A stretch of DNA of 64,000 nucleotides from Solibacillus merdavium. GTDB taxonomy: Bacteria > Bacillota > Bacilli > Bacillales_A > Planococcaceae. The position numbers and the translations under genes were made by a program. The notes under the pieces are model-generated. The model was not told where the DNA came from. It saw nothing but the letters and a program-made list of their open reading frames with translations, and ran no database searches. The stretch is taken from positions 124,001 to 188,000 of the forward strand of contig NZ_JACSPW010000004.1 of NCBI RefSeq assembly GCF_014836935.1, given 5' to 3'. Below, one piece after another: positions 10,869-59,167 of the stretch. How positions within the stretch are numbered: position 1 is the first letter of the stretch; the number at the start of each line of letters is the position of its first letter.

Positions 10869-11669
10869 TTAGCCTAATAGGGCGCGATCTGAATTCATTT
10901 TTTCTCCGCGGATATGCTCGAATTCGGACATTAAATCCGGAATAGTTAATGCTGGTTTTCGATTTTCTCCAACTTCTAAGATAATCTGCCCTTTATCCAT
11001 CATAATTAGGCGGTTGCCTAAATCCAACGCCTGCTGCATATTGTGGGTAACCATCAGCGTTGTCAGCTTACTTTCTTCCACCAGTTTTTTAGTCAGCTTT
11101 GTAATAAGCTCCGCACGTGATGGGTCAAGTGCAGCTGTATGTTCATCGAGCAACAATATCGAAGGCTTTGTAAAAGTCGCCATTAATAGACTTAATGCTT
11201 GGCGTTCACCACCTGATAATAGGCCCACCTTTGCATTTAAACGGTTTTCCAAATTTAGATGCAACTTTTCCAAGGAAGCTTTGAAAAACTCACGGCGTTT
11301 TTTATCTACACCGAACCGTAGTGTCCGTTTGGCATTACGTGAATAGGCAATCGCCAAATTTTCTTCAATCGTCATCGTAGGTGCTGTACCAGCCATTGGA
11401 TCCTGAAAAACACGGCCGATATGTACCGCACGCTTATATTCCGGTAAACGTGTTAAATCATTGCCATTAATAATGACGGACCCAAAGTCAGGTGTTAAGG
11501 CACCGGAAATCATATTCATCATTGTCGATTTCCCTGCACCATTACTTCCGATTATTGTGACAAAATCGCCAGGTGCTAAATTTAAATTAATATTATCCAA
11601 TGCAATTTTTTCATCGGGTGTTCCTTCGTTAAATACTTTATTAATTCCATCCAATTTAAGCAAGGCCAT
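10869..11669 (-). CDS. ABC importer ATPase of an ABC_sub_bind-type system
   Basis: 266-residue ATP-binding subunit. Walker A GSNGAGKST, signature LLSGGERQALSLLM, Walker B ILLLDEHTAALD (His after Glu as in this subfamily), and H-loop MVTHNMQQAL. Third gene of a minus-strand operon with a BPD_transp_2-type permease and a lipoprotein receptor. Similar triads are called trpXYZ in streptococci, and the trp operon is 1 kb away, but here no T-box precedes the operon, so a tryptophan role is only a guess. It overlaps the permease gene by 14 nt. Confidence 0.85.
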   Translation of the reverse strand: MALLKLDGINKVFNEGTPDEKIALDNINLNLAPGDFVTIIGSNGAGKSTMMNMISGALTPDFGSVIINGNDLTRLPEYKRAVHIGRVFQDPMAGTAPTMTIEENLAIAYSRNAKRTLRFGVDKKRREFFKASLEKLHLNLENRLNAKVGLLSGGERQALSLLMATFTKPSILLLDEHTAALDPSRAELITKLTKKLVEESKLTTLMVTHNMQQALDLGNRLIMMDKGQIILEVGENRKPALTIPDLMSEFEHIRGEKMNSDRALLG

Positions 11670-12696
11670 TCCCTCCCTGCTCTACTTTCAATTTCGCCTT
11701 TTGTAGTGCCATACGTTCTTCCAAACGCTTTGCCTTACGCTTCTTTTCTTTATACTTGCTAACGATTTGTGGGATAACTAACGCTAAAATAACAATAAAC
11801 GCTGTAATTAGTTTCATGTCGCCTGAATCTAACCATTTTACACGCAATGCTAATGCGTAAATCATTCGGTAAATTATTGCCCCGGCAATAACAGCAAATG
11901 TGACACGAACAATCGACTTTGTTCCGAAAATTGCTTCACCGATAATAACAGATGCTAGACCGACAACAATCATCCCGATACCTAATCCAACATCCGCAAA
12001 TTTTGTATATTGCGCAATTAATGCCCCGGATAATGCAACCATACCGTTTGAAATACCTAATCCTAAAATAACTAATGAATCTGTGTTTGCCGAAAAGCTG
12101 CGAATCATTCGTTTATTGTCCCCTGTTGCACGGATTGCCAAGCCGACTTCCGTTTTTAAGAACCAGTCAACGATAAGTTTAATAATAAACGTAACGACAA
12201 TCATTAAGGCTAAAATTCCCCAAGTCGTGGGCACCGTTGCAAGACCCATTGACTTTAATGCATTTGAGATTACTGAATCAATGCCTAGCCCCGACCAAAA
12301 ATTACCGAATGTCGAAAAGATTGTTTCTGAATTTAATAGTGGAATATTTGGTCTCGTTACACCAGTATCGGAACTTAATCCCATAATACGAAGATTGATG
12401 GAATAAAGAGCGATCATCATTAAAATCCCTGCAAGCAGCGGATTAATTTTCCCTTTAGTGTGTAAAATTCCTGTCATACATCCAGCAATAAATCCAGCAA
12501 CTGTTGCGACCAATGTTGCGAGTATAGGATTATAGCCAAGTACAATCATCATTGCTGCAGTACCTGCACCCGTTACAAAGCTTCCATCAACCGTTAAATC
12601 CGGAAAATCCAACACCCGGAATGTTAAATAAACACCAAGTGCCATAATTGCATAGATGATTCCTTGCTCTACCGACCCAAACAAAGCTGTAAACAT
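11656..12696 (-). CDS. ABC importer permease (BPD_transp_2 family)
   Basis: 346-residue membrane subunit, about nine membrane segments, with a basic C-terminal tail rich in Lys/Arg. GVYLTFRVLDFPDLTVDGSF, then VTGAGTAAMM, is characteristic of the permeases paired with ABC_sub_bind receptors. Second gene of the operon, 208 bp after the receptor gene. That gap is occupied by a large hairpin listed separately. ATG at 12696 follows AGGAGATGATTC. Confidence 0.85.
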   Translation of the reverse strand: MFTALFGSVEQGIIYAIMALGVYLTFRVLDFPDLTVDGSFVTGAGTAAMMIVLGYNPILATLVATVAGFIAGCMTGILHTKGKINPLLAGILMMIALYSINLRIMGLSSDTGVTRPNIPLLNSETIFSTFGNFWSGLGIDSVISNALKSMGLATVPTTWGILALMIVVTFIIKLIVDWFLKTEVGLAIRATGDNKRMIRSFSANTDSLVILGLGISNGMVALSGALIAQYTKFADVGLGIGMIVVGLASVIIGEAIFGTKSIVRVTFAVIAGAIIYRMIYALALRVKWLDSGDMKLITAFIVILALVIPQIVSKYKEKKRKAKRLEERMALQKAKLKVEQGGNGLA

Positions 12697-12904
12697 TCTG
12701 AATCATCTCCTACTATAGTTTTTTCCATTACACCATGGCGAGCGTAAGAACACTCGCGACCACTAAAAAGAGGTTAAACGTTAATTCGCGCTGGGATCCC
12801 CTCAGACAACCAGCCTTGACCTCATTACGATGACATTAGGCTGATCTTCCTTTTGGATACAAGCGCGAATATTTATTCCTGGCTATTGTTTACCAGCTTT
12901 CAAA
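12697..12904 (-). other. Structured intergenic region inside the ABC operon
   Basis: Within this gap, 12784-12870 forms a long imperfect hairpin. ATTCGCGCT.G.ATCC at one end pairs with the reverse complement at the other (14 of 16 positions), and an inner helix pairs ACCAGCCT with AGGCTGAT. A second hairpin at about 12737-12756 (GCGAGUGU with ACGCUCGC on the minus-strand RNA) lies nearer the permease start. Neither has a U tract, so they are not simple terminators. No known riboswitch consensus was recognised. A role in differential expression of receptor versus permease by mRNA processing is a reasonable inference. Confidence 0.5.
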
Positions 12905-13921
12905 TTATTGAACTTCTGCTTCCCATTCAGGTTTAACTTCCAACCCTAAATTTTCTGCAGTCGCTTTATTAATGACTAATTTTAAGTTCGCTGGATATGC
13001 TGCCGGAATTTCGGAAGGAGATTTCCCTTCCAGTAAAATTTGAGCTGCCATTTGCCCCGCTTCATAACCGATATCATAGTAATTGAAACCGTATGCTGCC
13101 AATCCGCCACGTGCTACAGAATCCAACTCACCAACAATTAATGGTAGTTTATTTGCATTTGCCACATCGATAACTGATTCTAATGCATTTACAACTGTGT
13201 TATCTGTAATGATGTAATACGCTTCTACTTTACCTAATAATGATTCTGTTGCTTGTTTTACTTCCGCTGATGTTGAAGCAGATGCTTCTACAATTGTAAT
13301 ACCTTCTTTTGCTGCTAATTCTTTAGCAGTTGAAATTTGGGCTACAGAATTTTGCTCCCCTGCGTTATACACCATCCCTACATTTTTCACACCTAGTTCT
13401 TTTAAGAATGCCATTGTTTTCGGCATTGTTTCTGGGTGTAAATCAATTGTTCCGGTAACATTTGACCCTGGAGTTGCCATTGATTCGATTAATTCCGCAC
13501 CTACCGCATCTGTTACCGATGTGAAAATGATTGGAATATCTGCAGTTGCACCTTTTGCCGCCTGTGCAGATGGTGTCGAGTTCGCAAAAATTAAGTCTAC
13601 ATTATCACTTACTAATTGTTGTGCAATTGTCATGTTTGCACTGTTATCTCCATTAGCTGATTTATCCACATACTCTGCTTTAATCCCTGCATCTTCAATC
13701 GCCTTTTTGAATCCTTCTTTTGCCGCATCTAATGATGGATGCTCTACGATTTGCGTTGTTCCAATTTTAAATGTTTTTGCTTCATCAGCTTGTGCAGTCT
13801 CTTTTGTTCTGTCACTTGCTGTAGCATTAATAGCAGTATCTTTCTCTTCTCCACCGCATGCTGCTAATAGTAAAAGAAGCCCAAATACTAAAAAGGAAAG
13901 CTTCGTTAATTTACGTGTCAT
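12905..13921 (-). CDS. ABC transporter substrate-binding lipoprotein (ABC_sub_bind family)
   Basis: 338 residues. A lipoprotein signal peptide ends in LLLLAACGG with lipobox Cys22, so the mature protein is anchored outside the membrane. The rest resembles the ABC_sub_bind family: FKIGTTQIVEHPSLDAAKEG, then QQLVSDNVDLIFANSTPSAQ, PIIFTSVTDAVGAELI and GFNYYDIGYEAGQMAAQIL. First gene of the importer operon, GGGGGGA 7 nt before the ATG. The ligand is unknown; homologues bind aromatic amino acids in streptococci. The leader (13922-14000) carries a small hairpin ACTTCAT/ATGAAGT but no T-box motifs. Confidence 0.85.
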   Translation of the reverse strand: MTRKLTKLSFLVFGLLLLLAACGGEEKDTAINATASDRTKETAQADEAKTFKIGTTQIVEHPSLDAAKEGFKKAIEDAGIKAEYVDKSANGDNSANMTIAQQLVSDNVDLIFANSTPSAQAAKGATADIPIIFTSVTDAVGAELIESMATPGSNVTGTIDLHPETMPKTMAFLKELGVKNVGMVYNAGEQNSVAQISTAKELAAKEGITIVEASASTSAEVKQATESLLGKVEAYYIITDNTVVNALESVIDVANANKLPLIVGELDSVARGGLAAYGFNYYDIGYEAGQMAAQILLEGKSPSEIPAAYPANLKLVINKATAENLGLEVKPEWEAEVQ

Positions 13922-14204: not shown

Positions 14205-14213
14205 TGCAGTTGC

Positions 14214-14256
14214 TTTGCGTGGTTCGTAACCATCCCACGTTAAAAAACTAGGAGGA
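14214..14256 (+). ncRNA. PreQ1-I riboswitch
   Basis: The aptamer hairpin GCGTGGTTCG...CCATCCCACG is followed by the A-rich tail TTAAAAAACTA and GGAGG. This matches the class I preQ1 consensus: a GGTTC loop, an ACCATCCC 3' strand and a pseudoknot-forming TTAAAAAACTA tail. The tail runs into the ribosome site of queT, so ligand binding should hide GGAGG and block translation. Confidence 0.93.
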
Positions 14257-14263
14257 ATTTAAT

Positions 14264-14749
14264 ATGAAAGTAAAGTTTCTTGCAACAAGTGCAATTATTG
14301 CAGCATTATATATTGCAATTACAATGCTAGTTGCCCCGATTAGTTTTGGACAAGTACAGTTTCGTATTGCCGAAATATTTAATCATCTAATCGCCTTCAA
14401 CCCCCGTTTTATGCTGGGTGTTGTATTGGGTGTATTTTTTTCAAATTTTCTTATGTCATCGGTTGGTCCAATTGACCTGATTTTTGGCGTGGGACATACT
14501 ATTCTTACACTAGGAATTTTTATTTTCATTTGTAAGTTTGTAAAAAACATTTGGGCACGTTTAGTTATTAATACGACACTCTTTACGTTTACAATGTTTA
14601 TCATTGCGGCACAGCTTAACCTAGTACTGGACTTTCCGTTTTGGGAGACATGGTTATTTGTAGCATTTGGGGAGTTTGTTGTTTTAGCTGTTGGTGCACC
14701 TATCATGTACACTTTAAATAAACGACTTGATTTCAAAAAATTGATCTAA
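14264..14749 (+). CDS. queT: QueT family queuosine-precursor transporter
   Basis: 161-residue membrane protein with about five segments. The QVQFRIAEIFNHLIAFNPRF segment and its general layout match QueT (DUF988), an ECF-type S-component thought to import preQ0/preQ1 or queuine. The preQ1-I riboswitch immediately upstream independently supports the assignment. ATG 7 nt after GGAGG. Monocistronic, ended by a hairpin at 14764. It implies salvage of the tRNA base precursor; no queC/D/E/F genes are present here. Confidence 0.92.
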   Translation: MKVKFLATSAIIAALYIAITMLVAPISFGQVQFRIAEIFNHLIAFNPRFMLGVVLGVFFSNFLMSSVGPIDLIFGVGHTILTLGIFIFICKFVKNIWARLVINTTLFTFTMFIIAAQLNLVLDFPFWETWLFVAFGEFVVLAVGAPIMYTLNKRLDFKKLI

Positions 14750-14854: not shown

Positions 14855-15162
14855 AATATTACATTACGGTAGCAGGTTGCGGGAGCGCGACCACCGTTTC
14901 AGTTGAGAAGAGTTTAGTTGAGTAAATTGTTGAATAAGAAGAGTAGCATTTTCCGTTTTGTGCAGAGAGCGTATGGTTGGTGAAAATACGTCAAAAGGTA
15001 AATGTGAATGGGCCTTATGAAAGCTGCCGGCATTAGTTGGCGGACGGTACCCTACCGTTATCAGGTTTAAGTGGAGGCTATTTTATAGCTTCAATCGAGG
15101 TGGCAACGCGGTGCAGATCGTCCTCAGCAAAAGTTTATTCTTTTGCTGGGGACTTTTTTTAT
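14855..15162 (+). ncRNA. Trp-specific T-box leader with terminator
   Basis: Stem I features are visible: AGAGAGC and the distal loop GGTTGGTGAAAA. The 3' side carries the specifier GAA-TGG-GCC, with the UGG codon at 15009-15011. The T-box core AGGTGGCAACGCGG is at 15098-15111. Its UGGC bulge would pair with a GCCA tRNA end, as for tRNA-Trp with discriminator G. The terminator stem GTCCTCAGCAAAAG / CTTTTGCTGGGGAC (15120-15153) precedes seven Ts. Uncharged tRNA-Trp should favour the antiterminator and switch on trpE-A. All parts look intact. Confidence 0.93.
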
Positions 15163-15188
15163 TCCCAAAATTAAAAGGAGTGTGTCGA

Positions 15189-16172
15189 ATGGTAATTCAA
15201 CAACGTTTTCGTACATCAATGAAAAAAGTGAACGGTGATTTACTGACACCGATTTCCATTTTCCAACGTTTAAAGGGCCACCGAAAGTTTCTTTTGGAAA
15301 GCTCGTCCAAGTATGAAGGTGATGGACGCTATTCCTTCATCGGCGTCAATCCAAGAAAAACCTATAGTGGAATTGGACAGCAGCTTATCGATAAATCACA
15401 TCTGTCCAATAGAGAGTACACATACGATGGTGAGCTTATTCAATTAATAAAACAGGTAATGCCGCGCATATCATCGCATACCGAATACCCGTTTACAGGC
15501 GGGGGTATTGGCTATATTCATGCCTTGCAAAAACCATTGCCTGAACTGCAGTTTCACGTTTACGATACACTCGTTATTTTTGATCATTTAACAGACGAGA
15601 TTGCTGTTTTCCATACGAATATCGAAGCTGAGCAGGATGAGCCGAATATCGATGTAATGATTGAACAGTTGTTTACAAGCACAACACCTGCCGAAAAGTC
15701 GTATACCTTAAACGATGTCGAAAAAGAGCGAAATGGTCATTATGCCGCACGATTTACTGGAGATACCCTTTCGCTTTATCGAAAAATGCGGATTGATTAT
15801 GCTGCACCTTATATGTATTATGTCGAATTTGATGATTGCACTGTACTTGGAACATCACAGGTAAACTTTATGCAAGTACGGGACGGATCTATTTCAGTTA
15901 CAAACAAAGCATTGCCGATAGAGCCATTTAGTGTGGAAAATTCAGTGCAGAAATTGCCCACAACAACACAAGGCTCACTGAACCCAACGTTGCATGCGAT
16001 TGATATTGTAAAGGAGCTTCTGCCGGCACAAGGCTTAATCGGCTATATCGGCTTTAACGGGCAAGTCGATTTTACGACACCCGATAATACAATAACGATT
16101 CAGGGAAATGTTGCACATCTTCACACAGAAACGAGTGAGGATGTCCCATTCCACTCACTATTGAAAGGATGA
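15189..16172 (+). CDS. trpE: Reduced TrpE-like anthranilate synthase component I, probably inactive
   Basis: First gene of the trp operon, 327 residues against about 460-520 for TrpE. The N-terminal regulatory part is recognisable (RKFLLESSSKYEGDGRYSFIG, GGGIGYIH). The chorismate-binding half survives only in pieces: LYRKMRIDYAAPYMYYVEF, then VLGTSQVNFMQVRDG, and HAIDIVKELLP with GLIGYIGFNGQVDF. Motifs needed for catalysis are absent: PIAGTRxRG, the DLxRNDxGR helix, the SH..S strand, SGAPKxRA, the DxAIxIRT strand and the C-terminal AGAGIVxDS..E metal glutamates. The frame is uninterrupted and has a normal AAGGAG site before ATG 15189; the longer upstream frame would run through the T-box terminator. 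No trpG is adjacent. It may be a decayed gene kept in frame or a non-catalytic protein. Confidence 0.8.
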   Translation: MVIQQRFRTSMKKVNGDLLTPISIFQRLKGHRKFLLESSSKYEGDGRYSFIGVNPRKTYSGIGQQLIDKSHLSNREYTYDGELIQLIKQVMPRISSHTEYPFTGGGIGYIHALQKPLPELQFHVYDTLVIFDHLTDEIAVFHTNIEAEQDEPNIDVMIEQLFTSTTPAEKSYTLNDVEKERNGHYAARFTGDTLSLYRKMRIDYAAPYMYYVEFDDCTVLGTSQVNFMQVRDGSISVTNKALPIEPFSVENSVQKLPTTTQGSLNPTLHAIDIVKELLPAQGLIGYIGFNGQVDFTTPDNTITIQGNVAHLHTETSEDVPFHSLLKG

Positions 16173-16178
16173 GTATGT

Positions 16179-17216
16179 ATGCCTTTACTTCCATATATTG
16201 AAAAAATCGAGCGAAAAGAACATTTAGTTTTTAAAGAGATGCAACAGGCTGCACAACTCATTTTTAATGAGCAGACACCAAAAGAGCAGATAGCTGCCTT
16301 TTTAACAGCGATGAGTATCAAAGGTGAAACAGCACATGAAGTTGCCGGGCTCGCTTCTGTCATGAAATCACATGCCGTTTCTGTCGATGCACCAGAAGGT
16401 ATTTATATCGATAATTGTGGTACAGGTGGCGACGGTCTTCAAAGCTTCAATATTAGTACGACCGCAGCTTTCGTGTTAGCCGGCGGGGGCATTTTAGTTG
16501 CAAAGCATGGTAACCGGAAAGTGTCGAGCGCTTCAGGCAGCTCGGATGTTTTAGAAGCACTTGGCATTACCCTACTCCCGGATACAGCACAAACGATAGA
16601 TTTATTGAAACAGCACGGAATCGCCTTTTTACATGCACCAAACATGCATCCAAAGCTAAAGCGGATCGGCGAAGTTCGACAATCACTTGGAAAGCCGACA
16701 ATCTTTAATTTAGTCGGACCTTTAACAAATCCTGTACCTTTGAAAACTCAATTCGTTGGTATTAACCGCCCTAACTTTACTACGGATTATGCTGAAGTGC
16801 TGCACATGCTCGGACGTGAGCGCGCGATTGTCGTATCAGGGGCACAAGGAATGGATGAGGCATCATTGGACGGTGAGAATACATTCGTCCTTTTAGACCA
16901 CGGTGATATTATTCCGTTTAAGCTTCGTGCGGAAGATGTAGGTTTAACTGCACAGCCATTATCAGCTATCCGTGGTGGGACCCCTTCTGAAAACGCAGTT
17001 ATTATGCGCGATTTATTAAAAGGAAAGCAAAGTGTATATTTCGACACAGTCGTGTTAAATGCCGGCATTGGATTCTTTGCATATGGCTTAGCGAGCACGA
17101 TGAAAGAAGGTATCGACATGGCAAAGGACAGCATCCTGTCGGGTCGTGCATATGAAAAGCTAGAAAGTGTTGTTGCCTATAACAAAAAAGTGATGCAGGA
17201 GGAAACGATTATATGA
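16179..17216 (+). CDS. trpD: Anthranilate phosphoribosyltransferase
   Basis: 345 residues, normal length. Transfers phosphoribosyl from PRPP to anthranilate. The PRPP-binding glycine motif DNCGTGGDG (residues 79-87) and KHGNRKVSS (109 on) with GSSDVLEALG are intact, as is the anthranilate-site region HPKLKRIGEVRQSLG. It begins 6 bp after trpE and overlaps trpC by 4 nt. The gene looks fully functional, which contrasts with the reduced TrpE before it. Confidence 0.95.
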   Translation: MPLLPYIEKIERKEHLVFKEMQQAAQLIFNEQTPKEQIAAFLTAMSIKGETAHEVAGLASVMKSHAVSVDAPEGIYIDNCGTGGDGLQSFNISTTAAFVLAGGGILVAKHGNRKVSSASGSSDVLEALGITLLPDTAQTIDLLKQHGIAFLHAPNMHPKLKRIGEVRQSLGKPTIFNLVGPLTNPVPLKTQFVGINRPNFTTDYAEVLHMLGRERAIVVSGAQGMDEASLDGENTFVLLDHGDIIPFKLRAEDVGLTAQPLSAIRGGTPSENAVIMRDLLKGKQSVYFDTVVLNAGIGFFAYGLASTMKEGIDMAKDSILSGRAYEKLESVVAYNKKVMQEETII

Positions 17217-18007
17217 CTATTTTAGACCGAATTATAGCGCAAAAAGAGCTCGAATTACCTGCTTTACTTGCATCAGCACCAAACTTTCCAACAATTGATA
17301 AGGTACGTCCCTCTTTATATAAAACATTAATTACAGCCAGTACGTTGCAAGTCATTTCTGAAATGAAGCGTGCCTCTCCATCAAAAGGTGATATTGCGAC
17401 ACATATCGACCCTGTTGAACAGGCTAGACAGTATGAGGAAGCCGGGGCTGCCTGCATTTCCGTTTTAACAGAGCAGGCATTTTTTAAAGGCAGCTTCGAA
17501 GATTTACATGCGGTAGCAAATGCGGTGGATATTCCGGTGTTATGCAAAGACTTCATGATTCATGAAGTGCAGATTGACTATGCAAAGGCTGCAGGTGCTT
17601 CAGTCATTTTATTGATCGTGGCGGCATTAACGGATGAACAATTAAAGGCACTTTACACATATGCAACTGAGAAACAGCTGGAAGTTCTTGTAGAAGTACA
17701 TGATACGGAAGAGTTACAGCGTGCACTCAATATTGGTGCGAAAATTGTCGGTGTAAATAATCGTAACTTAAAGACATTTGAAGTTTCTTTAACAACTACC
17801 GCTGAAATTGCCCAGCACCTTCCCCCTTCTTCCATCGCATTTATTAGCGAAAGTGGCATTTGGAACGCTGAAGATGCGCATTTTGTGGCGAATGCAGGCG
17901 CAAAAGGCGTTTTAGTTGGCGAATCCTTAATGGTGAGCGGAAACGTCAAGAACTCCCTTAAAGCACTACAAATCGACATCATAGCGAAGGTTGGCGAAAA
18001 TAGATGA
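17213..18007 (+). CDS. trpC: Indole-3-glycerol-phosphate synthase
   Basis: 264-residue TIM-barrel enzyme that closes the indole ring of CdRP. SEMKRASPSKGDI, LCKDFMIHEVQIDYAKAAGA, VGVNNRNLKTFEV and FISESGI carry the catalytic Lys/Glu/Asn residues. The start overlaps the trpD stop (ATGA), so translation is coupled. Usual length, no anomalies. Fourth enzyme step of the pathway. Confidence 0.95.
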   Translation: MTILDRIIAQKELELPALLASAPNFPTIDKVRPSLYKTLITASTLQVISEMKRASPSKGDIATHIDPVEQARQYEEAGAACISVLTEQAFFKGSFEDLHAVANAVDIPVLCKDFMIHEVQIDYAKAAGASVILLIVAALTDEQLKALYTYATEKQLEVLVEVHDTEELQRALNIGAKIVGVNNRNLKTFEVSLTTTAEIAQHLPPSSIAFISESGIWNAEDAHFVANAGAKGVLVGESLMVSGNVKNSLKALQIDIIAKVGENR

Positions 18008-18621
18008 CTAAAGCAAAAATTTGCGGATTGAAAGAAATCGAACATGTCGAAGCTGCGGTAAAAGCTGGAGCTGATTTTATCGGATTCATGTTTGCGCCCA
18101 GTAAACGACGCATTACAGTAGAGGAAGCAGCTGAATTAGCAAAAGTAATTCCAAGTACGGTAAAAAAGGTTGGAGTTTTTGTAAATGAACAGAACGATGT
18201 CATTCGACAAATTGCCGATCAAGTCGGACTCGACTATATCCAGTATCACGGAGATGAAACGCAGGAGCAAATACAGGAAATCGGCCTACCAGCTATTAAA
18301 GCATTTTCGATTCGTGGGGAAGAAGATGTTAAGCGAGCGGCAACCTATAATGTCGACTACTATTTATTTGATGCGCCAGGTACAGACTTCCGTGGAGGTA
18401 GTGGAGAATCATTTGACTGGATGCTTTTGGATAAAGTAAATATTCCGATGAATAAGGTCATTTTAGCAGGTGGTTTAAATGAAGAAAATGTAGGACTGGC
18501 GATAATGCTGGTCGAGCCATTTGCTGTAGATGTTTCAAGTGGTGTAGAGGTAGATGGTCGAAAAAGTTCGACAGCGATTACGAATTTTATTGAAATAGCA
18601 AAAGGAGAGTTGATTTTATGA
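18004..18621 (+). CDS. trpF: Phosphoribosylanthranilate isomerase
   Basis: 205-residue TIM barrel catalysing Amadori rearrangement of PRA. The catalytic Cys is in AKICGLK at the N-terminus and the general-acid Asp is in the [12 protein letters not shown] region. [15 protein letters not shown], then [10 protein letters not shown], is also conserved. Overlaps trpC and trpB by 4 nt each. Monofunctional, as in Bacillus. Confidence 0.95.
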
Positions 18622-19805
18622 CGACAGTAAAAGGACGCTTTGGACGATTTGGCGGTCAATTCGTGCCCGAGACATTGATGACTTCACTTAAAGAATTGGA
18701 GCTTGCATATGAGGAAGCAAAAAAAGACCCCTCATTCCAGGAAGAACTTGATTATTATTTAAAGCAATATGTCGGACGGGAAACTCCCCTTTATTTTGCG
18801 GAGCGTTTAACGAAAAAAGTCGGCGGTGCGAAAATCTATTTAAAACGTGAAGATTTAAATCATACTGGCGCTCATAAAATAAATAATGCGATCGGCCAAG
18901 CACTTTTAGCAAAACGTATGGGGAAGAAGAAGATTGTTGCTGAAACAGGTGCAGGTCAGCATGGTGTTGCAACGGCAACTGCATGTGCATTGCTTGATAT
19001 GGAATGTATCGTTTATATGGGGGCAGAAGATGTACGCCGTCAGCAACTGAACGTTTTCCGTATGGAGCTGCTCGGGACAAAAGTTGTTGCGGTAGAAAAA
19101 GGTTCTGCAACATTAAAAGATGCAGTTAATGAAGCATTGCGACACTGGGTTACTCATATTGAAGATACTCACTACATTTTAGGATCGGCACTTGGGCCAC
19201 ACCCCTTCCCTACAATTGTGCGTGATTTCCAGCGTGTCATTGGGGATGAAACACGTGCCCAAATTTTACAGCAGGAAGGACGCCTTCCGGATACAGTTAT
19301 TGCTTGTATTGGCGGCGGCAGTAATGCGATTGGCATGTTCTATCCCTTTGTGGAAGATAAGGAAGTCGCACTATATGGTGTGGAAGCAGCAGGTGCAGGG
19401 ATCGATACAAATCGGCATGCAGCAGCGATTCATGAAGGGAAAACAGGCGTCCTACACGGGGCTTTCATGTATTTACTGCAGGATGACAATGGATTCATTC
19501 AAGAAGCACATTCTATTTCAGCCGGATTGGATTATCCAGGAGTAGGTCCTGAACATTGTCATTTACATGAAACAGGCCGTGCATCCTACCCTTCTGTTAC
19601 AGATGAACAGTCACTTGAAGGTGTGAAGCTGTTATGTGAAACGGAAGGAATTTTACCGGCATTGGAAAGTGCCCATGCCGTTTACTATGCAGCACAATTT
19701 GCCAAAGACCGCCCTGCAGATGAAATTATTGTCGTGTGCTTATCAGGACGTGGGGACAAAGATGTTCACACATTAATGGATAAACTTGGAGGTGGAATAA
19801 AATGA
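18618..19805 (+). CDS. trpB: Tryptophan synthase beta subunit
   Basis: 395-residue PLP enzyme joining indole and serine. The PLP lysine is K87 in [31 protein letters not shown], the phosphate loop [11 protein letters not shown] and SGRGDKD are all present, the mark of a TrpB1-type subunit able to pair with TrpA. Coupled by 4-nt overlaps to trpF and trpA. Confidence 0.96.
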
Positions 19806-20581
19806 CATTGCAAAAACAGCTTGAAGACGTATTAGCAACTGGGGATAAAGCATTTGTTCCTTACATTATGGCTGGTGATCGAGGTATCGAAACATTAAAG
19901 CCAACTATTTTAAAGCTCCAGCAAATCGGTGTATCGGCCGTTGAAGTGGGTATTCCATTTACAGATCCTGTTGCAGATGGACCAACGATTGAACAGGCTG
20001 GAGAACGGGCACTTGCGCATGGTATTACACTAAGAAAAGTGTTGGCAGAGTTAACAAGCTTTTCACAGGAAATTCATATCCCGCTAGTTGTAATGACTTA
20101 TTTAAACCCAATTTTGGCATATGGTATTGAAGACTTTGCAAAGGATGCAAAGCTTGGTGGTGTGCAAGGGCTAATCGTACCGGATATGCCGTTTGAGGAA
20201 AGTGCTTTACTCCATACTGCATTAAAGGAACATGGCATTGCGCTTGTTCAGCTCGTTTCATTAACGAGTCCTGTTGAGCGAATAAAAAAATTGGCCGCAG
20301 CGAGTGAAGGATTTATTTATGCCGTAACAGTCAATGGAATTACTGGCGAACGTGTGAGCTTTGCAACAGAACTTGCTGGGCATTTCGCGAATTTGAAAGC
20401 AGCAAGCAACATCCCAGTTTTAGCAGGCTTCGGCATTTCAACAATTGAACATGTGAAAAGCTTTGGGGACATTGCAGATGGAGTGATTGTCGGCAGTAAA
20501 ATTGTTACTGCACTAGTTGAGCAAGACTGGGCAACGATTGAAGCGCTAGTGCAGGCGACGAAAAAAGCTACGATAAATTAG
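19802..20581 (+). CDS. trpA: Tryptophan synthase alpha subunit
   Basis: 259-residue TIM barrel that releases indole from indole-glycerol phosphate. The catalytic Glu48 and Asp59 are in [18 protein letters not shown] (Glu49/Asp60 of the enteric enzyme). [11 protein letters not shown] and VLAGFGIST line the active site. Overlaps trpB by 4 nt. No terminator follows it before the 77-codon membrane-protein gene. Confidence 0.95.
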
Positions 20582-46374: not shown

Positions 46375-46431
46375 ATTCACATATTAAAAAAGTGAACGTG
46401 TACGCTCCCTTTTTTAATGTGTGAATTTTTT
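46375..46431 (+). promoter_or_regulatory. Leader hairpin with U tract before the cold-shock gene
   Basis: ATTCACATATTAAAAAAG pairs with CTTTTTTAATGTGTGAAT (one mismatch), loop ~16 nt, then TTTTTT. It has all marks of an intrinsic terminator but lies in the middle of the predicted csp leader, so it may be an attenuator or cold-responsive switch. Confidence 0.6.
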
Positions 46432-46478
46432 TATACATTTAGCAATTCAATAATTAATTTTTTTGGAGGTTTTCTCTC

Positions 46479-46679
46479 ATGCAACAAGGTACAGTAAAAT
46501 GGTTTAACTCAGAAAAAGGTTTCGGTTTCATCGAAGTTGAAGGCGGTAACGATGTATTCGTACACTTCTCAGCTATCCAAGGCGAAGGTTTCAAAACTTT
46601 AGACGAAGGTCAAAAAGTTGAATTCGACGTTGAAGAAGGCAACCGTGGCCCACAAGCTACTAACGTAACTAAACTTTAA
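46479..46679 (+). CDS. cspA: Cold-shock protein CspA family
   Basis: 66 residues, single OB fold. RNP1 [10 protein letters not shown] and RNP2 VFVHFSAIQ are intact. RNA chaperone that melts secondary structure, abundant in cold or fast growth. GGAGG 12-13 nt before ATG. Unusually long leader with a terminator-like hairpin suggests post-initiation control. Codon use is strongly biased toward optimal codons, as expected for a highly expressed gene. Confidence 0.95.
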
Positions 46680-46709
46680 TTTTAACGATTTAAGTATATA
46701 GTTAGTTGC

Positions 46710-46747
46710 AAGAAGCATACTCAATATGAGTATGCTTCTTTTTTTAT
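46710..46747 (+). terminator. Terminator of cspA
   Basis: AGAAGCATACTCA.TA.TGAGTATGCTTCT followed by TTTTTT. Confidence 0.9.
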
Positions 46748-58950: not shown

Positions 58951-59167
58951 GTTGATTTCCGTTTCGGCGGACGCTTTCCGGGGGCGTGAGTCCGACATGA
59001 TGTCGGTCACAAAAGCGTTGCCACAGGACGTGGCGTTCTTAGCTTTTGTTCCCTGTAGTCTCAGGCGTCACGCTTATCCTTCAGGAAGCTTTGAGTGACT
59101 TCTCTGCTTCGCTCCGCCACGAAAGGCAGAGCCGGTAGTTACACTCGCCGCCTCCACTCCAATCAAC
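58951..59167. repeat. Bacillaceae-type intergenic long-hairpin repeat
   Basis: Begins GTTGATTTCCGTTTCGGCGG and ends CGCCTCCACTCCAATCAAC; GTTGATT and AATCAAC are inverted ends. GC-rich GCGGACGCTTTCCG and GCCGCCTCC stretches resemble the REP-like/bcr elements found in many Bacillaceae intergenic regions. The middle (GACATGATGTC, CCACAGGACGTGGC and others) is full of short inverted pairs. No ORF. It fills the gap between the SE1832-family and ABC-F genes. Confidence 0.7.

Follow-up and report, generated by a model that had tools for sequence, protein, structure and literature searches.

A TrpE paralogue without catalytic residues at the head of the Solibacillus trp operon, and its possible role as a tryptophan-binding regulatory subunit

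The trp operon is a textbook example of feedback control, and in Solibacillus merdavium its first gene has kept the tryptophan-pocket segments of TrpE and lost the catalytic residues. Which enzyme takes over the chemistry, and for what function is the dead protein kept?

The operonic gene, its leader and its lost catalytic residues

Within the window, the whole 64,000-nucleotide stretch of DNA analysed here, pseudo-trpE (15189..16172, + strand) encodes a 327-residue TrpE paralogue without catalytic residues, with an ATG start and no internal stops. It is preceded by a ribosome-binding site, AAGGAG (15175..15180, +), read from the sequence, and by a T-box leader (14921..15128, +; RF00230, 137.9 bits) whose specifier position reads GAA-UGG, the UGG codon of Trp. 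Downstream on the same strand lie trpD (16179..17216, starting 6 nt past the pseudo-trpE stop), trpC (17213..18007), trpF (18004..18621), trpB (18618..19805) and trpA (19802..20581), all matched full-length by their family models. An earlier note, made from the sequence alone, had described a first trp gene of about 327 residues in an open frame with good start signals and a T-box, had declared the TrpE catalytic motifs gone and had judged the other five trp enzymes intact; all three claims held, on the features above and on the residue alignment and family-model scores below.

The loss of the catalytic residues from the operonic TrpE is shown at two levels. Against family models, the short protein satisfies the TrpE N-terminal domain (PF04715, 81.6 bits, cut-off 23), matches only positions 36-83 of PF00425 (48 of 257 positions, 27.3 bits, cut-off 27), thus lacking a complete chorismate-binding domain, and falls far short of the TrpE equivalog TIGR00564 (104.7 bits, cut-off 517.7). 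Residue by residue, it was aligned with intact operonic TrpEs, TrpE2 proteins and E. coli TrpE, whose sequence was checked against the PDB entries for Salmonella and Serratia. The short protein has lost G328, T329, R330, E358, E361, H398, T425 and Y449 (E. coli TrpE numbering) by deletion, while R469, G483, G485, E495, E498 and K502 are either replaced or deleted; in every one of the 16 genus members the catalytic and metal residues have been deleted or replaced. G328, T329, H398 and G485 belong to the chorismate site (PMC10464499). E358, E361, T425, Y449, R469, E495, E498 and K502 are generally known as further catalytic or metal residues of the family. Relative to intact operonic TrpE, gaps fall at residues 121-131, 199-224, 285-321, 338-351 and 375-400 and near the C-terminus; since they are internal as well as terminal, active-site segments have been excised rather than the protein simply truncated, and several in-frame deletions account for the loss in the Solibacillus genus.

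A missing DLxRND motif was not retained as a mark of a dead enzyme, since Sporosarcina-type TrpE without it keeps the metal, His and pyruvate-site residues. In two such operonic TrpEs (L078, L079) the motif is replaced by LVALGREE and LLEVSKKE, all other catalytic residues are kept, and the protein is the single TrpE seen; DLxRND may thus be dispensable in TrpE.

Several further features of the leader and its surroundings were observed. A TRAP-binding-like array of (G/U)AG triplets (14905..14946, +) comprises four triplets, separated by 2-nt spacers, where the T-box begins and a further pair just within it, a run of four being reached by 0.4% of shuffles, and the TRAP gene mtrB is present in the genome (G000:C12:39296-39493). 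Across genera, runs of four to six such triplets, with spacers varying between 2 and 3 nt, lie directly against the 5' end of the trp T-box and run into it (L035, L037, L043, L048, L050, L053, L078, L092, L101 and others); they are rare in dinucleotide shuffles for most species, the exceptions being G002, G011, G015, G017, G020 and G086. The leader may be a hybrid read both by TRAP, for free Trp, and by the T-box, for uncharged tRNA-Trp, a suggestion for which there are no TRAP-binding data. Immediately 5' of the T-box, a PreQ1 riboswitch precedes queT (14213-14749, +), the riboswitch also lying upstream in L035, L050 and L051, and an ABC transporter (10869-13921, -) comprising an ATP-binding protein, a permease and a PF04392 substrate-binding lipoprotein adjoins the operon. 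Such a transporter resembles the TrpXYZ type linked to Trp uptake. Elsewhere in the window, a cspA thermoregulator RNA and a Bacillaceae-1 RNA lie at 46408-46742 and 58992-59058.

A second TrpE, selection and a graded series of losses

The probable maker of ANTHRANILATE is a second TrpE (TrpE2) of 464 residues on contig C8, scoring 578 bits against TIGR00564 (cut-off 517.7), whose gene overlaps that of a 193-residue TrpG by 4 nt and follows its own T-box, again with GAAUGG. PabB-PabA-PabC and two isochorismate synthases account for the remaining chorismate enzymes of the genome. With this complement, auxotrophy is rejected at the level of gene content. The earlier note had suggested, with uptake as the alternative, that another TrpE or PabB-type protein makes anthranilate and had proposed a search for one together with trpG or pabA; that search returned both TrpE2-TrpG and PabB-PabA, and the suggestion stands, with TrpE2-TrpG as a possible source. 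In a tree of the kept columns, TrpE2 proteins form one clade (support 100) and the short protein falls in the operonic lineage. At the trpE2 start itself (L075:8099-8162, contig C8), up to nine (G/U)AG triplets behind the T-box are spread across the ribosome-binding site and start codon, a signal that is strong in G000, G005 and G002 and weaker elsewhere; the sequence raises the possibility that TRAP controls translation of the active trpE2, in the absence of binding data.

The short form is a property of the genus. Orthologues of 325-333 residues, 61-94% identical and free of stops, occur in 15 of 15 other species, which answers the earlier note's proposal to look in related species and rules out a frameshift and the assembly error that it had named as a refutation. 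Pairwise dN/dS (Nei-Gojobori, own script) is 0.05-0.14 in 10 of 11 pairs, the closest pair giving 0.23 at a dS of 0.05; for TrpE2 and TrpD the values over the same pairs are 0.03-0.10 and 0.02-0.13, respectively, and dead copies in genera g14, g16, g18 and g19 give 0.08-0.20. These figures are approximate because many dS values lie near or above 1. No frameshift was found among the operonic copies read. Purifying selection on pseudo-trpE across the genus is thereby shown, so that of the two fates the earlier note had offered, a regulatory or a dead subunit, a dead relic is unlikely; the regulatory role remains an inference.

About 250 family genomes were screened by search, and proteins from about 45 were aligned; of the numbered genera we take g1 to be Solibacillus, g3 Sporosarcina, g4 Bhargavaea, g6 Viridibacillus, g14 Lysinibacillus, g16 Caryophanon and g18 Metasolibacillus, these names being inferred. 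Every catalytic residue checked is intact in the operonic TrpE of g3, g4, g8, g2, g12 and one g5 genome, where match counts gave no sign of a second TrpE; in the genomes read, a fully intact operonic TrpE occurs only where no second enzyme was seen. Mild lesions appear in g6 (R330V/I) and g17 (T425A), both with TrpE2. In g15 and g14 the protein is dead but almost full-length; in g1, g16, g18 (257-274 residues) and g19 the dead protein also carries deletions. Solibacillus apart, this makes five dead genera, which include Lysinibacillus and Caryophanon. For every dead genus, direct reading of one or more genomes showed TrpE2 with an adjoining TrpG, and TrpE2 is listed in nearly all others. Two genomes stand apart: in G227 (L197, Lysinibacillus group, operonic TrpE also dead) TrpE2 is split into two overlapping frames (G227:C1:2738975-2740353), possibly through a frameshift or sequencing error or possibly marking an anthranilate auxotroph, and in G086, a 2.1-Mb MAG rated 90% complete, neither TrpE2 nor PabB was found, true absence being unresolved given its incompleteness.

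In other lineages the operonic trpE is absent and the T-box stands directly before trpD (most of g5, g10, g11 and one g17 genome). The TrpD tree requires four or more independent losses of the whole gene, which shows that it can be removed cleanly and is not essential there. The history of the deletions is less simple: in a tree of TrpD, TrpE2 and TrpG, the full-length dead g15 groups with g1 (support 87/94), so some deletions were probably parallel, and the test weakly rejects one truncation shared by g1, g18 and g19 (AU p 0.039). Similar deletions thus likely arose more than once, shared ancestry of some not being excluded. The gap between trpE and trpD is at most 8 nt, or an overlap, in all dead copies; where no trpG intervenes, most copies that are intact or mildly damaged have a gap of 13-65 nt (one g6 row overlaps only via an alternative upstream trpD start). 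A general deletion bias might also explain the shorter gap.

The tryptophan pocket, the proposed role and its rivals

The Trp-binding residues of TrpE are Ser40, Pro291, Met293, Val453 and Tyr455 (PMC10464499), and their positions fall inside three retained blocks identified by alignment, with roles taken from the same source: LLES (residues 35-38; 15291..15302, +), the N-terminal part of the pocket, PYM (residues 207-209; 15807..15815, +), the second part, and IGY (residues 284-286; 16038..16046, +), the third. In the allosteric pocket, E39, S40, Y292, M293 and Y455 are identical in 16 of 16 genus members, P291 is replaced by A in four, and V453 by I. Across the dead clade the second segment drifts: some genera have A or S for P291 and L for M293. 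LLES shows no change in any dead copy and lies in a stretch (residues 8-61) that holds many of the invariant positions. Across genera, conservation of the pocket residues exceeds that of the remainder only modestly (permutation p 0.014), an effect driven by LLES.

The fold was approached through an AlphaFold2 model built on an alignment of 48 relatives (pLDDT 89.8, pTM 0.90); the 257-residue version from g18 is modelled nearly as well (pLDDT 86.7, pTM 0.85). Foldseek with the predicted model returned TrpE and PabB at E about 1e-19, and VIA-align superposed 314 of 327 residues on the Trp-bound Serratia TrpE 1i7s (Z 29.4, rmsd 2.9 A), with a Z of 31.4 against 7bvd, meeting the criterion for a TrpE/PabB fold and completing the comparison with TrpE structures that the earlier note had recommended. 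The short protein is predicted to be the whole TrpE beta-sandwich, its Trp pocket built from N- and C-terminal segments. Two claims of that note are accordingly amended: the surviving part is not a regulatory N-terminal half, since blocks from the whole length are kept, and Trp would be bound not through the N-terminal domain alone, since the retained pocket segments come from both ends. That L-Trp is still bound at the LLES/PYM/IGY site is inferred, with no direct binding evidence. As a separate observation, linker residues T143, I145 and E148 (within residues 143-148, the FHTNIEAEQ region) are nearly invariant among dead copies and differ in the few intact operonic TrpEs seen; this segment is a possible partner-binding site.

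Our best reading, which we consider as likely to be wrong as right, is that pseudo-trpE encodes a Trp-binding pseudoenzyme that acts as regulatory subunit to TrpE2-TrpG or to TrpD, both the Trp binding and the partner being inferred. The protein descends from the operon's own TrpE, the second intact TrpE-TrpG pair lying elsewhere; excision of the active-site segments has left a compact protein with a confidently predicted TrpE fold, which would bind L-Trp at its allosteric site and pass the signal to a partner. Its synthesis responds to tRNA(Trp) charging just as that of the pathway which it would regulate. TrpE2-TrpG would be the obvious partner by homology, in a prozyme-like heteromer, and TrpD is suggested by the tight coupling of the trpE and trpD frames. 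Retention of a dead but constrained protein, where clean loss has been repeated elsewhere, argues for a function, and Trp binding is inferred to be the simplest function consistent with what was kept. A bolder version, which we are slightly more inclined to doubt than to accept, would make the protein a stripped-down receptor for free Trp, co-made with TrpD as a Trp-sensing regulatory subunit and feeding back on the synthesis or use of anthranilate, derived by repeated and partly convergent excision of the TrpE catalytic centre in several genera with pocket and sandwich kept.

This reading is weakened on several counts. There is no direct evidence for Trp binding or for any partner, its basis being sequence and predicted structure only, and the retained segments are also core strands of the sandwich. 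TrpE2 keeps its own Trp-pocket residues except L38F, so an outside Trp sensor may be unneeded; the idea that TrpE2 lost its Trp site and depends on the dead subunit is unsupported, as L38F is the only difference and also occurs in lineages without the dead gene.

Among the rival explanations, a scaffold, though rather unlikely, survives best. The protein may be a structural or stabilizing partner held at a fixed ratio with TrpD, a scaffold for TrpD or the downstream enzymes that does not sense Trp. In its favour, the dead trpE and trpD frames abut or overlap in all dead lineages, purifying selection acts without catalysis, and the pocket drifts in some genera; against it, LLES and its surroundings stay invariant, and genera that lost the operonic gene still keep their TrpD genes. 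A new function, whether in sensing or binding some other small molecule or in partnership outside the pathway, is unlikely: the missing active-site segments and the nearly invariant linker residues speak for it, but in the dead genera examined the gene still heads the trp operon and follows a T-box, and the Trp-pocket segments are retained in the Solibacillus genus. Very unlikely is a slowly decaying pseudogene, open only because its translation feeds ribosomes to trpD; deletions that differ between genera and outright loss in other lineages would fit, but dN/dS is low within g1, g14, g16, g18 and g19, every copy read is free of frameshifts, the predicted fold is confident, and genomes without the gene simply have trpD next after the T-box. 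Residual anthranilate synthesis through a rearranged active site, or an assembly error, is all but excluded, with no supporting evidence found, the metal-binding glutamates, catalytic His and pyruvate-site residues deleted or replaced, and 15 other genomes in agreement.

If the regulatory-subunit reading is true, a change from enzyme to regulator becomes traceable through living intermediates, from intact to full-length dead to a 257-residue remnant. For annotation and metabolic models, the operonic 'trpE' of Lysinibacillus, Solibacillus and relatives should not be counted as an anthranilate synthase, and as the hosts are cultivable, binding, complexes and deletion phenotypes are open to direct test.

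Comparison with known systems

No earlier description of a dead or truncated TrpE was found in the open-licence literature searched. With canonical TrpE (TIGR00564, PF04715 plus PF00425), the short protein shares the fold, the N-terminal domain, the Trp-pocket motifs, the position as first trp-operon gene and T-box control; it differs in lacking the catalytic residues, in its length (327 against about 460 residues), in scoring far below the equivalog cut-off and in having an intact TrpE2 elsewhere. PabB, the aminodeoxychorismate synthase, has the same fold and is among its top structural matches, and E. coli PabB is generally known to hold bound Trp at the equivalent site; PabB is active, unlike the short TrpE, and an intact PabB is encoded in the genome together with PabA and PabC.

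Trypanosomatid prozymes, dead paralogues of AdoMetDC and deoxyhypusine synthase (PMC5201418, PMC3663545), likewise are kept beside an active enzyme of the same pathway. Of the prozyme-type criteria, a dead paralogue beside an active enzyme in one genome (judged by residues) and maintenance by selection are met here, and complex formation with, and modulation of, the active enzyme are inferred only. The prozyme heteromer is proven and activating (PMC5201418, PMC3663545), whereas the short TrpE has had active-site segments excised and its partner and direction of control are unestablished. HisZ of the short-form ATP phosphoribosyltransferase (HisGS-HisZ; PMC10795190) is a regulatory subunit from another amino-acid pathway. 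It originated from a tRNA synthetase; the short TrpE, unlike HisZ, derives from the enzyme of the pathway step itself. A precedent for control between TrpE and TrpD is provided by the anthranilate synthase-phosphoribosyltransferase complex of enteric bacteria, where Trp inhibits TrpD activity only within the complex with anthranilate synthase (PMC10464499); in that complex TrpE is active, whereas in Solibacillus the operonic TrpE is dead and TrpD is a separate protein.
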